Shown: piece after piece, positions 15,238 to 48,588 of the stretch
Numbering within the stretch: position 1 is the first letter of the stretch
How the letters are laid out: each line of letters begins with the position of its first letter
From: Candidatus Neomarinimicrobiota bacterium
GTDB lineage: Bacteria > Fidelibacterota > Marinisomatia > Marinisomatales > S15-B10
Direction: 5' to 3'
NCBI GenBank assembly: GCA_036476315.1
Contig: JAZGBI010000098.1
Span: 94,001 to 158,000, forward strand
DNA length: 64,000 nucleotides
Program-made: the position numbers and the translations under genes
The notes under the pieces: model-generated
Seen by the model: only the letters and a program-made list of their open reading frames with translations
What the model was told of the DNA's origin: nothing
Database searches by the model: none

Positions 15238-16593
15238 TTAGGCGGCAAGTTTCATTTGGATGGTTTCCATTCGCCCCTTGAACTCCCGATCCGCCTTCAT
15301 CTTCATCCGAACCGTTCTGCACGCATGAATGACCGTGGTGTGGTCCCTTCCGCCGAAGTGCAGTCCGATGTTTTCCAGCGAAGCTCCCACCATTTCGCGA
15401 CACAGATACATGGCCATTTGTCTCGCGTGCGCCACTTCCATCTTTCTCCCTTTCCCGATCAATTTGTTTTCCGGGATAGCCGTCAAAGAGCTAACCCTTC
15501 GAATTACGTCATCAATGGTTATGCCCGATTCAGCCGACTTGCCCAGGGTCTCCCGTAGTGCCCGCTTCGCCAGGTCGAGCGTAATGTCGGCGTGCGACAA
15601 CGATGAGTAAGCGAGAAGCTTGATGAGGGCCCCCTCGAGTTCCCTGATGTTGCTTCGGATGTTCGTGGCAATAAATTCCGTGATTTCATAGGGGATATCC
15701 AGCCCGTCCTCCTCAGATTTCCTCTGCAAGATCGCTATGCGTGTCTCCAGGTTTGGCGCCTGAATGTCAACGATCAATCCAGACTGGAATCGCGACACCA
15801 GTCTGTCTTTCAAACCGTAGAGCTCCCGGGGATGCCGGTCCGTGGTAAGGACAATCTGCTTTCCCTGTTGATACAACTCATTGAACGTGTGGAAAAACTG
15901 TTCCTGGGTCTGTTCCTTTTTTTGAAGGAACTGTATATCGTCCACGAGGAGGAGACCCGCCCCGCGGTACCGGCTTGAAAAGTCCGACGTTTTGTTGTTC
16001 TGAATAGCAGAGATAAAATCGAGCGTAAATTTTTCGCTCGTCGTATAATGAACGCCCGCTCTCACATTCGTCCCCAAGACCGCGTTTCCGATTGCTTGCA
16101 AAAGGTGTGTCTTTCCCAGGCCCACACCACCGTAGATAAGCAATGGATTGAAGGACGTCTGCCCCGGACCGTCTGCCACTGAGACGGCCCCAGCCTTCGC
16201 CAGTTGATTATTAGGCCCCTCCACAAAACTGTCGAAAGTGTACCGCTTGTTGAGTTTACTGCCCCGATCGTAATACCGGGGCCGGACGCCGTCCATGTCC
16301 ACGCCCTCGCTGACCCCCGTTTCTTCCCCTACTCCCCGGACATCTCCCACAACCACGCTGTACTTCAGATCACATTCTGAACCTGACACTTCCCTGATTT
16401 TATCCAAAATTAGGGACCGGTAGTGGGTGTCGATCCACTCGTAGTAGAACCGACTCGGCACCTCCAGCGTTAATGTCCCATCATCGATGACCATTCCTCG
16501 AATCGGGTCAAACCATGTCGCGTATGTCTGACCGCTAACTACAGGCTTTATTTTCTCGCTTACCTGTTGCCAGAGGTCAGTTGCTGATACCAT
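15238..16593 (-). CDS. dnaA: Chromosomal replication initiator DnaA
   Basis: Binds DnaA boxes at oriC and melts the origin. Domain I is at about 1-85, a short linker to about 110, the AAA+ domain from about 115 with Walker A GGVGLGKT (K161) and Walker B LLLVDDIQF, and domain IV at the end with the GGRDHTTVIHACRTV DNA-binding signature. 451 residues. A perfect DnaA box (16600-16608) lies 7 nt upstream of the start codon, consistent with autoregulation. It is transcribed away from the proposed origin at 27.6-28.1 kb, co-directional with the leftward fork. Confidence 0.98.
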   Translation of the reverse strand: MVSATDLWQQVSEKIKPVVSGQTYATWFDPIRGMVIDDGTLTLEVPSRFYYEWIDTHYRSLILDKIREVSGSECDLKYSVVVGDVRGVGEETGVSEGVDMDGVRPRYYDRGSKLNKRYTFDSFVEGPNNQLAKAGAVSVADGPGQTSFNPLLIYGGVGLGKTHLLQAIGNAVLGTNVRAGVHYTTSEKFTLDFISAIQNNKTSDFSSRYRGAGLLLVDDIQFLQKKEQTQEQFFHTFNELYQQGKQIVLTTDRHPRELYGLKDRLVSRFQSGLIVDIQAPNLETRIAILQRKSEEDGLDIPYEITEFIATNIRSNIRELEGALIKLLAYSSLSHADITLDLAKRALRETLGKSAESGITIDDVIRRVSSLTAIPENKLIGKGRKMEVAHARQMAMYLCREMVGASLENIGLHFGGRDHTTVIHACRTVRMKMKADREFKGRMETIQMKLAA

Positions 16594-26333: not shown

Positions 26334-27630
26334 CACCGAGACCACCCGTTCCAAACGAACGCGTCTAGCCGTTCTTTTCCTTTTTGTCTCCAGTTCTTTC
26401 CTCTGCGGCCAGGAAACAATCGATGGGATTGCGGCAATCGTCGGAGACAATATCGTTCTAAAAAGCGAATTGGCGGAGCTCGTCTTCAGGTCCGCGCTGG
26501 AACTTAAACTGGACCCTCAGCGCGATACTGATCGTTTGAGTAAACTCCAAAAACAGGTTCTTGAGTCCATGATTGACCAGAAGCTTATGCTCGAAATGGC
26601 GGAAATCGAGACCGTTGAGGTTAACGATCGTGAGGTTGATGCGGCGCTGGACCAGTACCTTGAATCTCTCGTCGCCCAATACGGATCGGAAGCGCGCGTG
26701 GCTGAACTTATGGGAAAGTCCGTCACTGAAATGCGCAGAGAACTCTGGCCGGACATGCATGATCAACTCATCTCCCAGCGGTTTCAGGAAGAATTGCTCA
26801 GTGATGTTGCCGTCACCCGGAATGAGGTTGTGACTTTCTATGACGAATACAGAGACAGCCTTCAAGCTCTCCCCACTCTCTACGACATAAGCCACATTCT
26901 ATTCGGCTTCGCCCCGGGGGAAGAAAGCCGACAGGCTGCATACGATTACATTCGCTCCATACGGAGACGGGTCCTCACGGGGGAAGATTTCGCCGCGCTC
27001 GCCCGCGAGTATTCCCAGGATCCCGGCTCCTCACCGCACGGCGGAGAACTAGGGCTCGTCAGCCGGGGAACTCTTGTTCCCGAATTTGAAGAGCTGGCCT
27101 TCTCTCTGGAACCCGATGAAACAAGCGCCATTATTAAGACAGGCTTTGGATACCACATCGTGCAGCTCGTGAACAAGGTTGGCGAGAAAATCAACGTCCG
27201 CCACATCCTGATTTCCCCTCAGATGTCTGATGCGGACGAGGATAGTGTCTACAGTGCCGCTCTGTCGATCCGGGACAGCATAGTTTCGGGGAATGATTTT
27301 TCCACCTTTGCCCAGCGCTACTCCGCTCACGAACTCTCCAGACTGCAGGGCGGAAACCTTGGTTGGGTAAGCCCTTCCACCCTTCCCGTTCCCGAAATGG
27401 CCGAGGCTCTTCCCATCCTAACCGTTGGCGATATTTCAGTCCCTATCCGTTCTAACGATGGCTATCACCTTTTGCTTCTCCAGGGTATTAAGGTGGGCGG
27501 TTTTCCCGCTTTGTCATCCCATTGGTCTGAAATAGAGACCCTCGCCCTGGCGAAAAAAAAATCCGACTTCTTTTCAGATTGGATAGAAAAAGCTTCAAGT
27601 TCTCTTTACATCAAGACGTTCATCCAATAA
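26326..27630 (+). CDS. surA: SurA-type periplasmic chaperone/PPIase
   Basis: Chaperone for outer-membrane proteins. 434 residues: signal peptide (about 12-28, ending FLCGQ), SurA N-terminal helical domain ([17 protein letters not shown]...), parvulin domain 1 (about 183-285; [43 protein letters not shown]) and parvulin domain 2 (about 290-395; [33 protein letters not shown]). Last gene of the head-on block, ending where the AT-rich origin region begins. Confidence 0.9.
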
Positions 27631-27834
27631 ACCTTCCTCACTCTTCACCCTTCATGTGCCAGCCTCCAGTCCGCAGCATCCTCTGGACACCCCGGGGCGC
27701 TGCCACCGCCAGTGAAAATCTTAGACGTTAGACGCTTCACGCACCACGTTTGACATATCCCTGTCCATATTACCCCTACAATCGTTACTCTTTACGCGTT
27801 ACCTTATATTATATATAACTTGTTGTTTGACATA

Positions 27835-27843
27835 TTATCCACA
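27835..27843. promoter_or_regulatory. DnaA box 1 of oriC
   Basis: Perfect TTATCCACA, 16 nt to the right of the AT-rich element. Confidence 0.8.
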
Positions 27844-27922
27844 TAAAGTAACAAATCATTATACCGTCTCTTCCTCCCCAAATATCTTATTATTGGTCTT
27901 TTGCAGGACCTTCGAAGTTGGT

Positions 27923-27931
27923 TTATCCACA
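27923..27931. promoter_or_regulatory. DnaA box 2 of oriC
   Basis: Perfect TTATCCACA, same orientation as box 1, followed by a second AT-rich stretch (27935-27980). Confidence 0.8.
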
Positions 27932-28087
27932 CCCCTTATTATTACTACAATATTGTTTCTAAATATCCTTTATTTATTGTATGAAGAGGAAAAAATTGTT
28001 GTGAGTAACTCTATTTATAATTAACATCAATGTCTAGCCTGCGAACCTTGATTTAGTAAAAATTTCAGAGTGTAAGGACAACGATCG

Positions 28088-29206
28088 ATGAAAATTTCCC
28101 TTTCCAAGGATGCGCTCCAACAAGCACTACAAAATCTGGCGAAAGCAATGCCGGGAAGATCAACAGTTCCGATCTTGAACAGTGTATTGTTCGAGGCTGA
28201 GGAGAACGCCCTTGTGCTTCGGGCAACGGATCTGGAGATCACAATGGTCATACGCCTGAACGTCAATATACGGGAGACGGGAAGCGTTGCGATTCCCCAC
28301 AGGGTGCTTATGGAGACAACAAACGCGATGCCGGAGACGGACTTGAGCATTGAAGCCGATGAGAAATGGAGAGTAACTATTGACACGGATTTCGGCAGCT
28401 ACGATATTTCGGGTTCGGACGGGGATGAATTTCCAGCGATCCCCGAAGTGGACGACAAGAAGGAGGTGGTTGTTCCATCTGAAACGCTGGAGAGGCTCAT
28501 TGGGAAAACGGTATTTGCGTTGAGTTCAGATGAATTGAAGCCAGCATTAATGGGGACACTTTTTGAGTTTCGCGAGGACTCCATCACCGCAGTGGCAACA
28601 GATGGACACCGGCTTTCCATATGTTCAAGATCAGACCAGTCATCCGGAGGATACCGGGGTGAAATTATTGTACCAAGGAAGTTCCTGCAACTTGTACTGC
28701 AGCACATGCACGAGGAAAAAGAGATTGTCCTGTGGATAGGTGAGAATCACGTGACAGTATCATTTGGCGACATGACAGTCTTTACACGAATCATTGATGA
28801 GAGGTACCCGGATTACAGGACCGTGCTGCCTCAAGAGCAGGACAAGATTGTTAAGGCAAACAGAGAGGATCTTCTGGCTGCTGTGAGGCGAGTAGCAATT
28901 TTTTCAAATCGCTCTACCAGGCAGATCACCCTCAAGTTTTCGACGGAGGAAAATTCGATCTCCACTGAAGACCCCGAACGGGCCTCGAGTGCAAAGGAAA
29001 AGATTGACCTCGAGTACGAAGGTGACGAACTGCTCATAGGATACAACGCAGCATATCTCGGTGATCTGCTGTCCCATCTGGACACCGACAAAGTCATCAT
29101 GAGGCTTAAGACATCAGTGAGTGCCGGTCTCATTGTTCCAGAAACCCAGGTTGAAAACGAAGAACTGACGATGCTCCTTATGCCAATGCGTACGACAGCT
29201 CAATAA
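28088..29206 (+). CDS. dnaN: DNA polymerase III sliding clamp (beta)
   Basis: Ring-shaped processivity clamp of the replicase. 372 residues with three clamp domains; MKISLSKDALQQALQNLAKAMPGRST is the typical opening (written in two parts: MKISLSKDALQQ and LAKAMPGRST) and the C-terminal MLLMPMR ending fits the family. First gene on the rightward replichore, co-directional with its fork. Confidence 0.97.
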   Translation: MKISLSKDALQQALQNLAKAMPGRSTVPILNSVLFEAEENALVLRATDLEITMVIRLNVNIRETGSVAIPHRVLMETTNAMPETDLSIEADEKWRVTIDTDFGSYDISGSDGDEFPAIPEVDDKKEVVVPSETLERLIGKTVFALSSDELKPALMGTLFEFREDSITAVATDGHRLSICSRSDQSSGGYRGEIIVPRKFLQLVLQHMHEEKEIVLWIGENHVTVSFGDMTVFTRIIDERYPDYRTVLPQEQDKIVKANREDLLAAVRRVAIFSNRSTRQITLKFSTEENSISTEDPERASSAKEKIDLEYEGDELLIGYNAAYLGDLLSHLDTDKVIMRLKTSVSAGLIVPETQVENEELTMLLMPMRTTAQ

Positions 29207-45098: not shown

Positions 45099-45204
45099 GA
45101 GCCGCGTGTAATTCTTAGGATTCTTGAGTAAATTATTCCGAGAGGTTGATCCTTTACCGAAGATAGAGATCACGTGACATGTGGCGGATCGCTGCGTCAC
45201 GAAA

Positions 45205-45585
45205 ATGGCTGTTCTAATCATGATCACAAGCAATCAACAAGCTCGTGAGCAAGTACGCAAAGCGTACAGAAGGAGAGGTAAGGACCTGTTTTTGGGAAAG
45301 CTCGCAGCCAATGTTTATGTCATGAAGAATGACGGGAAAGCTCTCATGTGGGCCTGGAAGGAAAAAAGGCGCAACCCCATGTTTGTGGATCTCTATGCGG
45401 CAGAAGAGCTCAGGAAGTGGCAAATACCGGAAGACATTAGAAGGGCGGCAGAATGGAAACTGGAAAAGGGGAGGGCAAGTTATCCCAGGAAGGAAGAAAC
45501 TCTGGCGAAGGAGAATCTTCCGAGCATGGGGGAGCTGGAGAAGATCGAACTGAACTTTTCTCTCAGTTCGCTCAGGAAGAGATAA
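45205..45585 (+). CDS. Hypothetical protein upstream of the SMC-like ATPase
   Basis: A basic 126-residue protein from the ATG at 45205 (a GTG at 45181 and an ATG at 45220 are alternatives). It has no motif I know; the segment FVDLYAAEELRKWQIPEDIRRAAEWKLEKGRA is helical (quoted in part: ELRKWQIPEDIRRAAEWK). Its last 130 nt overlap a second frame that looks more protein-like after about 45550, so the gene may be a single reading frame broken by a one-base shift near 45555-45585. Placed directly before the SMC-like ATPase, so a partner role is possible. Confidence 0.45.
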   Translation: MAVLIMITSNQQAREQVRKAYRRRGKDLFLGKLAANVYVMKNDGKALMWAWKEKRRNPMFVDLYAAEELRKWQIPEDIRRAAEWKLEKGRASYPRKEETLAKENLPSMGELEKIELNFSLSSLRKR

Positions 45586-45710
45586 CCCTTCTGAAGGAAG
45601 AGGAAGAGCAGGGATCCAGGCGCGAGGGTCTCTCGCCGGGATTGAAAAAGAGCTTGCGGGGAGTTCTGGAGAAATATCTCTCCGAGTGGCGTAAGAAGAA
45701 GGAGGATTAG
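45453..45710 (+). CDS. Overlapping frame, probably the shifted C-terminus of the previous gene
   Basis: From an ATG at 45453 this frame would give 85 residues. The first 30 are G/E/S-rich and look like an out-of-frame reading; from about 45550 the sequence (SQFAQEEITLLKEEEEQ..., GLSPGLKKSLRGVLEKYLSEWRKKKED) is a convincing charged helical region ending 5 nt before the SMC-like start. It reads best as the continuation of the 45205 frame after a -1 shift. Independent translation cannot be excluded. Confidence 0.35.
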   Translation: METGKGEGKLSQEGRNSGEGESSEHGGAGEDRTELFSQFAQEEITLLKEEEEQGSRREGLSPGLKKSLRGVLEKYLSEWRKKKED

Positions 45711-45715
45711 GCACA

Positions 45716-47563
45716 TTGAAAACGGTAAGGACGGGCAATTTGAAATTGGTACTTGAGAACATTGGAGGTCTCGTCGGCCGGCACGAATATGTGCTAAAAG
45801 AGGGTTTGAACCTCATTTCCGCCCCCAACGCTGCCGGGAAGAGTTCCATCATCCATGGTTTACAGGCGCTCATCATGGACAGCAAGGAACTGGAAAAAAA
45901 GAGCCATTTTTTGAATGCATTCGAACAGTCAGGACGGGCTGAGCTTTCGTGGGATCACAGCCATTCGGTTCGCCGGATCATTGGAGGGAATGGATCAGTC
46001 TCGGTGGGAGGCGACGCCATCCATCCGGAGGAGCAGAAATGTAGCCTGTTTGCGGTTGCCAGCGAGGACAATGAGCTTCTGGCGAGGATCAAATCCGGTA
46101 GGCCCATTAGAAACCTCATTCTTGAATTTTCAGATTACCGCTATTTCCAGCTCTTTGGGGAATATCTTCAAGGTGAGCTCGAAGGAAATGAAAACGAGCT
46201 CAGCAAGCACCACGACACGTTGACAAAGTTGAAATCGCTATATGGTGACCTGAAGAAAAAGGAGCAGGACCTCGCCCGTTGCGAGGAGGAACGCGGTAAA
46301 GTCGCAGAGATATCTATGGACGCTATCGCTGAGAACAAGAAGCTGACCATGACTCTGTCGTCACTGGATTTTGAGCTCAGTGAACTGATAGCCGAAATTG
46401 CGCACATTCACGGAAAGTACCAAAGAGTCAAGAACCGTATCGCAAGCAGCGAAGATAAGGAAAGGCGTTTGAGATCGGAAGTCTCCCAGTTCGAGCGGGA
46501 ACACCCTGACATCGAGGACGAACTGGAAAAACTTCAGGAGACGCTCACCGAGATTCGACAGAAAGATTCAGAGTCAGAAGCCCGAGCAGCCGTTAACAAT
46601 GACAGCCTTGAAAAAACGAACAGTGGTCTCATCCACTATATGGAATACGGGCAGGACATCTGTCCCACCTGCGGCCAGGAGATTACTCCGGAACTTCTCA
46701 GGCAGAGGCAGAAGACACTGGAGAAAGAGCAGAAGAACCTCCGGGAGACACTTGAGCAGCTGAAAGACAAGCAAACGAAACTTGAAAGGAACTACAATGC
46801 CTTGGGTCATTATGCCATCCAGGTGAAAACGGAATTGCGAGAGAAATTGCTCAAGGGCGTAGAGCGTATCGTGACCGACAAAAAGAACGTTACCGCCCTT
46901 GAAAAACAGCTGGATGTGAAGGTTAACAAAAGGAAGAAACTGGTGGAAAAGGTCAAGGAATTGGAGGCCATGGTAGACAGTCATCTACGGAATATGCTGA
47001 ACCAACGCCGGAGGCTGGATGAGGAGATCGCAAGGTTGGATGAGAACATTAAAACCATCAAGGCTGAGATTGAAGACCTGGGTGACGTGCGCTCTATCGT
47101 GGACTACCTGGTGAATGAAAAGTCCTTCCTGGAACGCGCAGTGGAGTACGTTTCACGAAGAGAAGAAGAAGTCAAAACGGTGGTTCGAAAGCGGTTCAAC
47201 GAGCAGATAACCCAGGTCTATTCCGTCATGGAATTCGACGATGTATTTGATAAGATATTTCTTGATGAGAATTTCGATTTGCAGATCATCCGGCGCCAGA
47301 AAGGATTAACGACCCAGGACTCGGTCGCCTCCCTCAGTCGAGGGGAAAAAGAAACCGTAGGACTCGTTCTCATGCTGGCCGGGAAACAGGAACATCTTCC
47401 CGATTTCCCCTTCTTTATAGCGGATGAAACCAGCTTCTATGATGCCACCCGGTTTCGCCGTATTGTGGATTTCATAACCAACATGGTTGGGTACACGGTG
47501 GTGACAAAGCTCGTGCCGAAAGAGGAGCAGGCGGGCCTGAAGCTGACGCACAGCTTCGGATGA
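45716..47563 (+). CDS. SMC/Rad50-like ATPase with zinc hook (archaeal SMC-related type)
   Basis: A 615-residue ABC-type ATPase with long coiled coils. Walker A SAPNAAGKSS is at 35-44, a coiled coil runs from about 150 to 500, a zinc-hook CPTCG is at its apex (C316, C319), the ABC signature is LSRGEKE (540-546) and Walker B FFIADETSF at about 565-573. The N-terminal part (LENIGGLVG... and SLFAVASEDNELLARIKSGRPIRNLIL) recalls the family named archaea-specific SMC-related proteins rather than SbcC/Rad50, RecN or RecF. No Mre11/SbcD nuclease adjoins. TTG start after AAGGAGG. It probably acts on DNA or chromosome structure; role unproven. Confidence 0.75.
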   Translation: MKTVRTGNLKLVLENIGGLVGRHEYVLKEGLNLISAPNAAGKSSIIHGLQALIMDSKELEKKSHFLNAFEQSGRAELSWDHSHSVRRIIGGNGSVSVGGDAIHPEEQKCSLFAVASEDNELLARIKSGRPIRNLILEFSDYRYFQLFGEYLQGELEGNENELSKHHDTLTKLKSLYGDLKKKEQDLARCEEERGKVAEISMDAIAENKKLTMTLSSLDFELSELIAEIAHIHGKYQRVKNRIASSEDKERRLRSEVSQFEREHPDIEDELEKLQETLTEIRQKDSESEARAAVNNDSLEKTNSGLIHYMEYGQDICPTCGQEITPELLRQRQKTLEKEQKNLRETLEQLKDKQTKLERNYNALGHYAIQVKTELREKLLKGVERIVTDKKNVTALEKQLDVKVNKRKKLVEKVKELEAMVDSHLRNMLNQRRRLDEEIARLDENIKTIKAEIEDLGDVRSIVDYLVNEKSFLERAVEYVSRREEEVKTVVRKRFNEQITQVYSVMEFDDVFDKIFLDENFDLQIIRRQKGLTTQDSVASLSRGEKETVGLVLMLAGKQEHLPDFPFFIADETSFYDATRFRRIVDFITNMVGYTVVTKLVPKEEQAGLKLTHSFG

Positions 47564-48588
47564 AACACCGAAGTTCTTCCTCTTACCCCCTCCTTATTGT
47601 CCTCCTCTGTCTAACCCTTTCTTCCTGTGTGGAAAACATTATCCATATTCAGATTCACCCGAGGGGCGACTACTCAGTGAAATTTACCGCCCGGGGTGAT
47701 TCGACGGATCTATTCAACGACGATTTTGTCATCCCCACGGGGGCGGGATGGAAGACGGTGCGTTCCATTGAAGAAGAGGATGATGACGAGAAGTATGTCA
47801 TTGAATCCACAAGGCATGTCCGGCGCGGAGGTCAACTCCCCTCCAATTTTTCCAGGGACAATTATCCCAGTGAAATAAAACTTCACCATCCGCTTGTTGT
47901 TGATATGGAAGACCGGTTCTTCTCGAGGAGATTTCGACTGAACTATACATTCCGGGGTCGCCAGATGGAGGATAAGTACGCGGCGCTGAAAGACGTGCTT
48001 GACGATGAGGAGACCGCGGGGTGGCAGAACGAGGTTATTCGCTATATTGCGTCTGAGGGTCTCAACCGTGCAAAGGAGGAGCTCCCCGGAGCGGTGTCTG
48101 CGCTCTTGGTAACGGAAATCGAAGCCGCGTTGGATTCAGCTTTGAGCTCTTTTCGAGAGATTGAGGAGGACAGTGTACTAATCGAGTGGATGGAGAGCAA
48201 AGGGGACTGGATCTCGAGCTTGATGGACGGAGTGGAGTCAGGTCCATCGCAGGAGTTCCTGGTGGCGTGGGAGCATCAGATGAATACTCTGGAGAAGGAA
48301 GTGACGATTACCATGGATCTGGACGATGATAGCTTCAAGGTTTTTGCCACTCTGCCCGGGAGTGTGGTGTCAGGAAATTATGATTCCCTCAATGGGGATA
48401 CGTTGGGGTGGGAATTCTCTCTGGAGGATTTTGTTGATAACGATTACGTCATGGAAGCCGAATCCCGTCTCGAGATGCCCCAGCGCATCCGCTCCCTCAT
48501 CGTTCTTGCCGCAGTCATGGTCCTCTTCGTCATTGCTACATACGCCGGAAGTCATCGGGAAAGAAGGAAACAGTCGATTTCTCTCTAA
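47560..48588 (+). CDS. Lipoprotein with C-terminal membrane helix
   Basis: A 342-residue protein with a lipobox LSSC (about residue 23) and a second membrane segment near the C-terminus (about 312-331, LIVLAAVMVLFVIATYAG) followed by a basic tail. The extracytoplasmic body is acidic and unlike anything I recognise. Anchoring at both ends by lipid and helix is unusual. Its ATG overlaps the SMC-like gene stop by 4 nt, so the two are co-transcribed. Confidence 0.7.
   Translation: MKHRSSSSYPLLIVLLCLTLSSCVENIIHIQIHPRGDYSVKFTARGDSTDLFNDDFVIPTGAGWKTVRSIEEEDDDEKYVIESTRHVRRGGQLPSNFSRDNYPSEIKLHHPLVVDMEDRFFSRRFRLNYTFRGRQMEDKYAALKDVLDDEETAGWQNEVIRYIASEGLNRAKEELPGAVSALLVTEIEAALDSALSSFREIEEDSVLIEWMESKGDWISSLMDGVESGPSQEFLVAWEHQMNTLEKEVTITMDLDDDSFKVFATLPGSVVSGNYDSLNGDTLGWEFSLEDFVDNDYVMEAESRLEMPQRIRSLIVLAAVMVLFVIATYAGSHRERRKQSISL

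Follow-up and report, generated by a model that had tools for sequence, protein, structure and literature searches.

An open reading frame (ORF) in the chromosome of a Candidatus Neomarinimicrobiota bacterium resembles the archaea-specific SMC-related proteins (ASRPs), the least understood proteins of the SMC superfamily. The family has been defined as archaea-specific, with bacterial cases left unresolved (PMC9389158); the three bacterial sequences reported in 2022 by Yoshinaga et al. came from metagenomes, on contigs of 3.9-14.9 kb for which contamination was not excludable (PMC9389158). The locus thus raises the question of whether an ASRP can be a genuine bacterial gene and, if so, with which partners it works and to what end. 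The window analysed here is a stretch of 64,000 nucleotides, in which the following features are relevant.

27630..28088, no strand: likely oriC, between a SurA-like gene and dnaN (GC-skew sign change, DnaA boxes, and dnaN/gyrB/gyrA)
45181..45585, forward strand: gene A, small basic protein of 134 aa with a GTG start (archaeal A profile, synteny with the ASRP)
45453..45710, forward strand: gene B (tentative), up to 85 aa, overlapping gene A in another frame (position, C-terminal motif)
45716..47563, forward strand: ASRP, SMC-like zinc-hook ATPase of 615 aa (NF045487 score, motifs, AlphaFold2 model, tree, native codon usage)
47560..48588, forward strand: lipoprotein of 342 aa, outside the module, its start overlapping the ASRP stop by 4 nt

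Family Assignment

The frame at 45716-47563 is open throughout and encodes 615 aa from a TTG start. A second TTG in the same frame, at 45740, would yield a protein beginning MKLVLENIGG, as in relatives (MTLHIILENIGG), leaving the predicted start ambiguous by 8 codons. The motifs read in the original prediction are all in place, namely Walker A (APNAAGKSS, residues 36-44), the zinc hook (CPTCG, 316-320), the signature motif (LSRGEKE, 540-546), and Walker B (FFIADE, 566-571). Among the 15 ASRPs compared, most key positions of these motifs show little or no variation. A Pfam search returned nothing above threshold for this ORF. The NCBIfam profile NF045487, “archaea-specific SMC-related protein,” which covers the Sulfolobus coalescin ClsN and haloarchaeal Sph (PMC9389158), scores 354.5 bits over residues 15-599 against a curated cut-off of 300. 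Judged by its sequence, the ORF is a member of the ASRP family, as had been proposed, and the label “archaea-specific” fails since its host is not the archaeon that the profile presupposes. The AlphaFold2 model (mean pLDDT 85.7) predicts a split ABC head, its halves joined by one long antiparallel coiled coil that has a short zinc hook at its tip, and Foldseek matches to it include Rad50, SMC5/6, MukB, Lamassu, and Jet structures, Rad50/SMC-type heads being the best.

An ordinary SbcC that has lost its SbcD partner is not what the comparisons describe. The Rad50/SbcC profile reaches 47.7 bits against a cut-off of 1000, and in the tree the ASRP rows, including that of the window, are separated from the only Rad50 row, from three short SMCs, and from further Rad50-like rows, on a deeper backbone of moderate support. 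The lack of an Mre11/SbcD partner, noticed from the window alone, extends to the host genome (95.8% complete), where the SbcD/Mre11 search gave 0 matches while being positive in 13 of 14 control genomes; no SbcC-type protein was found in that genome either. The host does possess a canonical SMC, a 1178-aa frame on another contig (C61). As a separate observation, family f9 of the same order contains very small genomes (0.4-1.0 Mb) with a shortened SMC of 687-709 aa, versus about 1180 aa, that matches end to end (L007, L011, L022).

Residence in a Bacterial Chromosome

The ASRP contig spans 218,158 bp and holds dnaN, gyrB, gyrA, mfd, and dnaA, together with SusC/SusD-like genes recognised by eye. 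GC skew has its minimum and changes sign at about 27.9 kb of the window, where DnaA boxes (27835 and 27923) precede dnaN at 28088, followed by gyrB and gyrA. The ASRP lies 17.8 kb from this likely origin, in agreement with the 18 kb originally estimated. The dnaA gene itself is located at 15241-16593 on the reverse strand, roughly 11 kb from the GC-skew origin.

The GC content, GC3, and codon usage of the module are those of its neighbour genes, and the codon usage of the ASRP is native to the host. The loci of its archaeal relatives mostly have 26-38% GC, with one at 44%. Furthermore, the ASRP stop codon and the lipoprotein ATG share 4 nt (47560-47563), an overlap which shows that the cassette sits inside a bacterial transcription unit. 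Mis-binning or mis-assembly of an archaeal contig might have been suspected, given that the assembly is in 112 contigs and that close ASRPs are archaeal. Such an artefact is now very improbable and largely refuted by the bacterial dnaN, gyrB, gyrA, dnaA, and mfd genes on the same contig, by a base composition and codon usage matching the neighbours rather than the 26-44% GC of the archaeal relatives, and by the overlap with a lineage-native gene. Native codon usage, the overlap of the stop codon with the lipoprotein gene, and the large oriC-bearing contig together argue that the ASRP is not contamination. With one securely placed on a contig of 218 kb, ASRPs are established as possible, though rare, residents of bacterial chromosomes.

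The lipoprotein is another matter. Its family occurs in 78 of the 130 genomes of the order, and only the window's own genome among those 78 has an ASRP above the cut-off. Being common in the lineage whether or not an ASRP is present, it was rejected as a module member, and the chromosome-envelope system for which it had been invoked finds nothing in its favour.

Conserved Partners

The small basic protein ahead of the ASRP has fared far better. Homologues of gene A lie directly upstream of the ASRP in 12 archaeal loci, found in nine Asgard genomes (G251, G254, G271, G303, G305, G311, G312, G357, and G376), one Thermoplasmatota bin (G256), and two Halobacteriota (G1080 and G1223). A profile built from archaeal A sequences only, with the window left out, scores 63 bits on the window gene, the best of 2000 shuffles reaching 10.3 bits. 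A-profile matches in the more divergent loci are clear for L106 and L115 and weak for the rest. In the G271 genome, gene A is split over two frames (L156:3178-3596), through either assembly error or decay. The neighbourhood, proposed at the outset as a check, is kept on one side only: synteny with gene A is retained in archaea, and the lipoprotein occurs without the ASRP. By sequence and synteny, gene A is thus a genuine conserved partner of the ASRP. No Pfam or NCBIfam family matched it, and its AlphaFold2 model, of low confidence (pLDDT 52), has a beta-alpha-beta-beta-alpha-beta order.

Gene B is more tentative. In the archaeal loci inspected, an ORF between A and the ASRP ends in an LxxYxxxWR-like C-terminus with a similar helix motif, comparable with the C-terminal motif of the window ORF (VLEKYLSEWRKKKED). 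An Asgard B profile gives the window B 7.3 bits, rank 2 of 2001 with 2000 shuffles included, which is no more than suggestive of homology with archaeal B. A single upstream gene broken by a frameshift into the 134- and 85-aa ORFs was considered and rejected, as Asgard loci likewise have two separate ORFs. Neither A nor B matched a kleisin or KITE profile in Pfam/NCBIfam.

In archaea, the cluster is larger. The order X-AAA+-A-B-ASRP is seen in six loci (L118, L156, L157, L158, L183, and L184; B read by eye), and an AAA+ gene plus a small gene in the A position precede the divergent ASRPs of L106 (an Archaeoglobales bin), L159 (a Thermoplasmatota genome), and L134 and L135 (two Asgard genomes). 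The AAA+ protein belongs to PF00004; X matched no Pfam family. Neither gene is present at the window locus, and the best match to the AAA+ query in the host genome is a 679-aa frame on contig C107 that is probably FtsH, so that the bacterial module may be a remnant or have another way of working. The partners listed in the original prediction were hence incomplete, the conserved ones being A, probably B, and, in archaea, AAA+ and X. The authors of the family found no consensus gene neighbourhood (PMC9389158), and no description of the X-AAA+-A-B-ASRP module, or of gene A as a partner, was found in the literature searched. These four genes are the first candidate subunits for the ASRP class, and the question of its loader and partners is now directly testable.

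Several archaeal neighbourhoods have features of their own. A histone-like ORF, recognised by eye, lies directly upstream of one X-AAA+-A-B-ASRP cluster (L183:4170-4424). ANME-2 ASRPs (L107, L112, and L113) have a different conserved ORF just upstream (TSTTIEDDTGYQSTLAFILLTDVVDG...), a possible third type of partner, and one ANME-2 genome carries a tandem pair of ASRP genes (L113:7198-11149). Finally, the Hodarchaeota genome G251 has a second, divergent ASRP (L115).

Phylogeny, Distribution, and Transfer

The A-associated ASRPs, including that of the window, form one clade with support values of 96/93 in an 11-row tree and 92/94 in a 13-row tree, some backbone supports being moderate (92/94, 84/80). 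Outside it fall ClsN, the ANME-2 clade, and the Sph/Methanosarcina clade with its RdfA-like partner. The sister of the window ASRP is that of L184, from the Halobacteriota genome G1080, at 36% identity and with support of 100/99.

Within the phylum, an ASRP above the NF045487 cut-off was found in only 1 of 245 genomes, the host itself (G000), which is also the only one with a clear gene A; two others gave marginal A matches (E 0.002-0.008). A single-protein scan of the genome contig collection found no ASRP relatives. A degenerate NIGG...PNAxGK[ST] DNA pattern of low sensitivity, scanned instead across genomes of 84,980 species, identified 19 stretches, 18 in archaeal records and one in the bacterium Croceibacterium, the latter being rejected as a chance match. 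With so insensitive a scan, these sequence matches indicate, at most, that ASRPs are rare in bacteria. A viral origin of the module was also rejected, as protein searches of viral contigs and tblastn against phages came back empty.

Every close relative being archaeal, the sequences compared are most simply explained by transfer of the module into bacteria from archaea, the most likely direction among the genomes covered. Codon amelioration and the 36% identity indicate that such a transfer was not recent.

Proposed Function

We consider it likely (about 60%) that the module is an archaeal SMC-like complex gained by lateral transfer, pared down to A-B-ASRP and probably acting on DNA beside the host SMC. 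Since the canonical 1178-aa SMC is present in the same cell, redundancy is unlikely and a separate job would be expected. In the mechanism envisaged, the ASRP would dimerise through its zinc hook, and ATP-driven closing and opening of its heads would clamp, bridge, or loop DNA, as SMC/Rad50 proteins do. A and B would be its small accessory subunits, with A as an adaptor and B possibly binding the neck or coiled coil as a helical peptide, in a kleisin-like role. The AAA+ protein of archaea may load or remove the complex, a step with which the bacterium would dispense. The job itself could be local compaction or compartmentation of DNA, similar to ClsN, or a role in cell shape or segregation, similar to Sph3.

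A more ambitious version, to which we give slightly less than even odds, would make X-AAA+-A-B-ASRP the ancestral form for much of the ASRP family: an undescribed SMC-like machine of archaea, built of several subunits and served by its own AAA+ remodeller. The bacterium would then run a minimal A-B-ASRP form beside its own SMC, the first case in which an archaeal complex for chromosome organisation is securely placed in a bacterium.

Characterised relatives offer limited guidance. The original prediction had linked haloarchaeal homologues to chromosome biology; a chromosome role is indeed documented, but for Sulfolobus ClsN (PMC9389158, PMC9764264), which compartmentalises the chromosome (PMC9764264), whereas the haloarchaeal role of sph3 is in rod shape and motility (PMC10869688). 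Deletion of sph3 in Haloferax abolishes both traits, as does deletion of rdfA (PMC10869688); PMC13286277 states the reverse for the Sph3 deletion, and the primary paper is followed here. ClsN and Sph have, moreover, been argued to be unrepresentative of the family (PMC9389158), and the function of neither ClsN nor Sph3 is assignable to the window ASRP by homology.

The Haloferax phenotypes do lend some weight to a cytoskeletal module, in which the ASRP would be a coiled-coil scaffold that sets cell form, as Sph3 does with RdfA, and A would replace RdfA; haloarchaea also have a small gene directly before the ASRP. Yet the A and RdfA profiles fail to align (hhalign probability 0.2%), A was accordingly rejected as an RdfA homologue, and no RdfA-family gene was recognised beside the window ASRP. 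The Sph/RdfA ASRPs form a separate clade, and no cytoskeletal gene adjoins the bacterial cluster, leaving this explanation unlikely. RdfA-like genes, with a CxxC start and an ...LTxxxNExxL... motif, do occur directly downstream of ASRPs in Methanomethylovorans and Methanosarcina bins (L036:5913-6536; L104 and L105), suggesting from sequence that the RdfA-ASRP pairing may reach beyond haloarchaea.

Somewhat less probable still is a defence module, in which an SMC-like protein, similar to Lamassu LmuB or Wadjet JetC, would sense DNA that is foreign or bears ends and would act with A and B as effectors. The PADLOC matches to LmuB (5.8e-15) span the coiled coil and heads and are weak, the LmuB profile attaining only 53.5 bits, far under the ASRP score. 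The Foldseek matches to Lamassu and Jet proteins and the patchy distribution would fit such a module, as would the loose resemblance of the A model to Cas2/VapD folds, but these fold matches have E values of 0.05 or more with a poor model, and A has no recognisable Cas2 active site. No nuclease domain was found in A, B, or their neighbours, no LmuA nuclease adjoins the ASRP, and no defence genes were recognised beside the cluster. An A-B-ASRP complex acting on DNA remains our preferred reading.

Comparison with Known Systems

The module can be placed against four known systems. With SbcC/Rad50, the best Foldseek match, it has the zinc hook and ABC head in common; it differs in its length (615 aa versus about 900-1200), in a host genome without detectable SbcD, and in its position among ASRPs in the tree. 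Lamassu LmuB and Wadjet JetC are likewise SMC-like coiled-coil ATPases with small partners, whereas the window module has no nuclease partner and its profile similarity to them is weak. RdfA-Sph3 of haloarchaea (PMC10869688) is likewise a syntenic pair in which an ASRP gene adjoins one for a small protein, although A is not homologous to RdfA and the ASRP clades are separate. Closest of all are the ASRPs themselves, ClsN and Sph, which are homologous to the window protein over its full length of about 600 aa and have the same zinc hook and NIGG...PNAxGKS head motif. In contrast to them, the window ASRP resides in a bacterial chromosome and belongs to an A-associated clade distinct from both.
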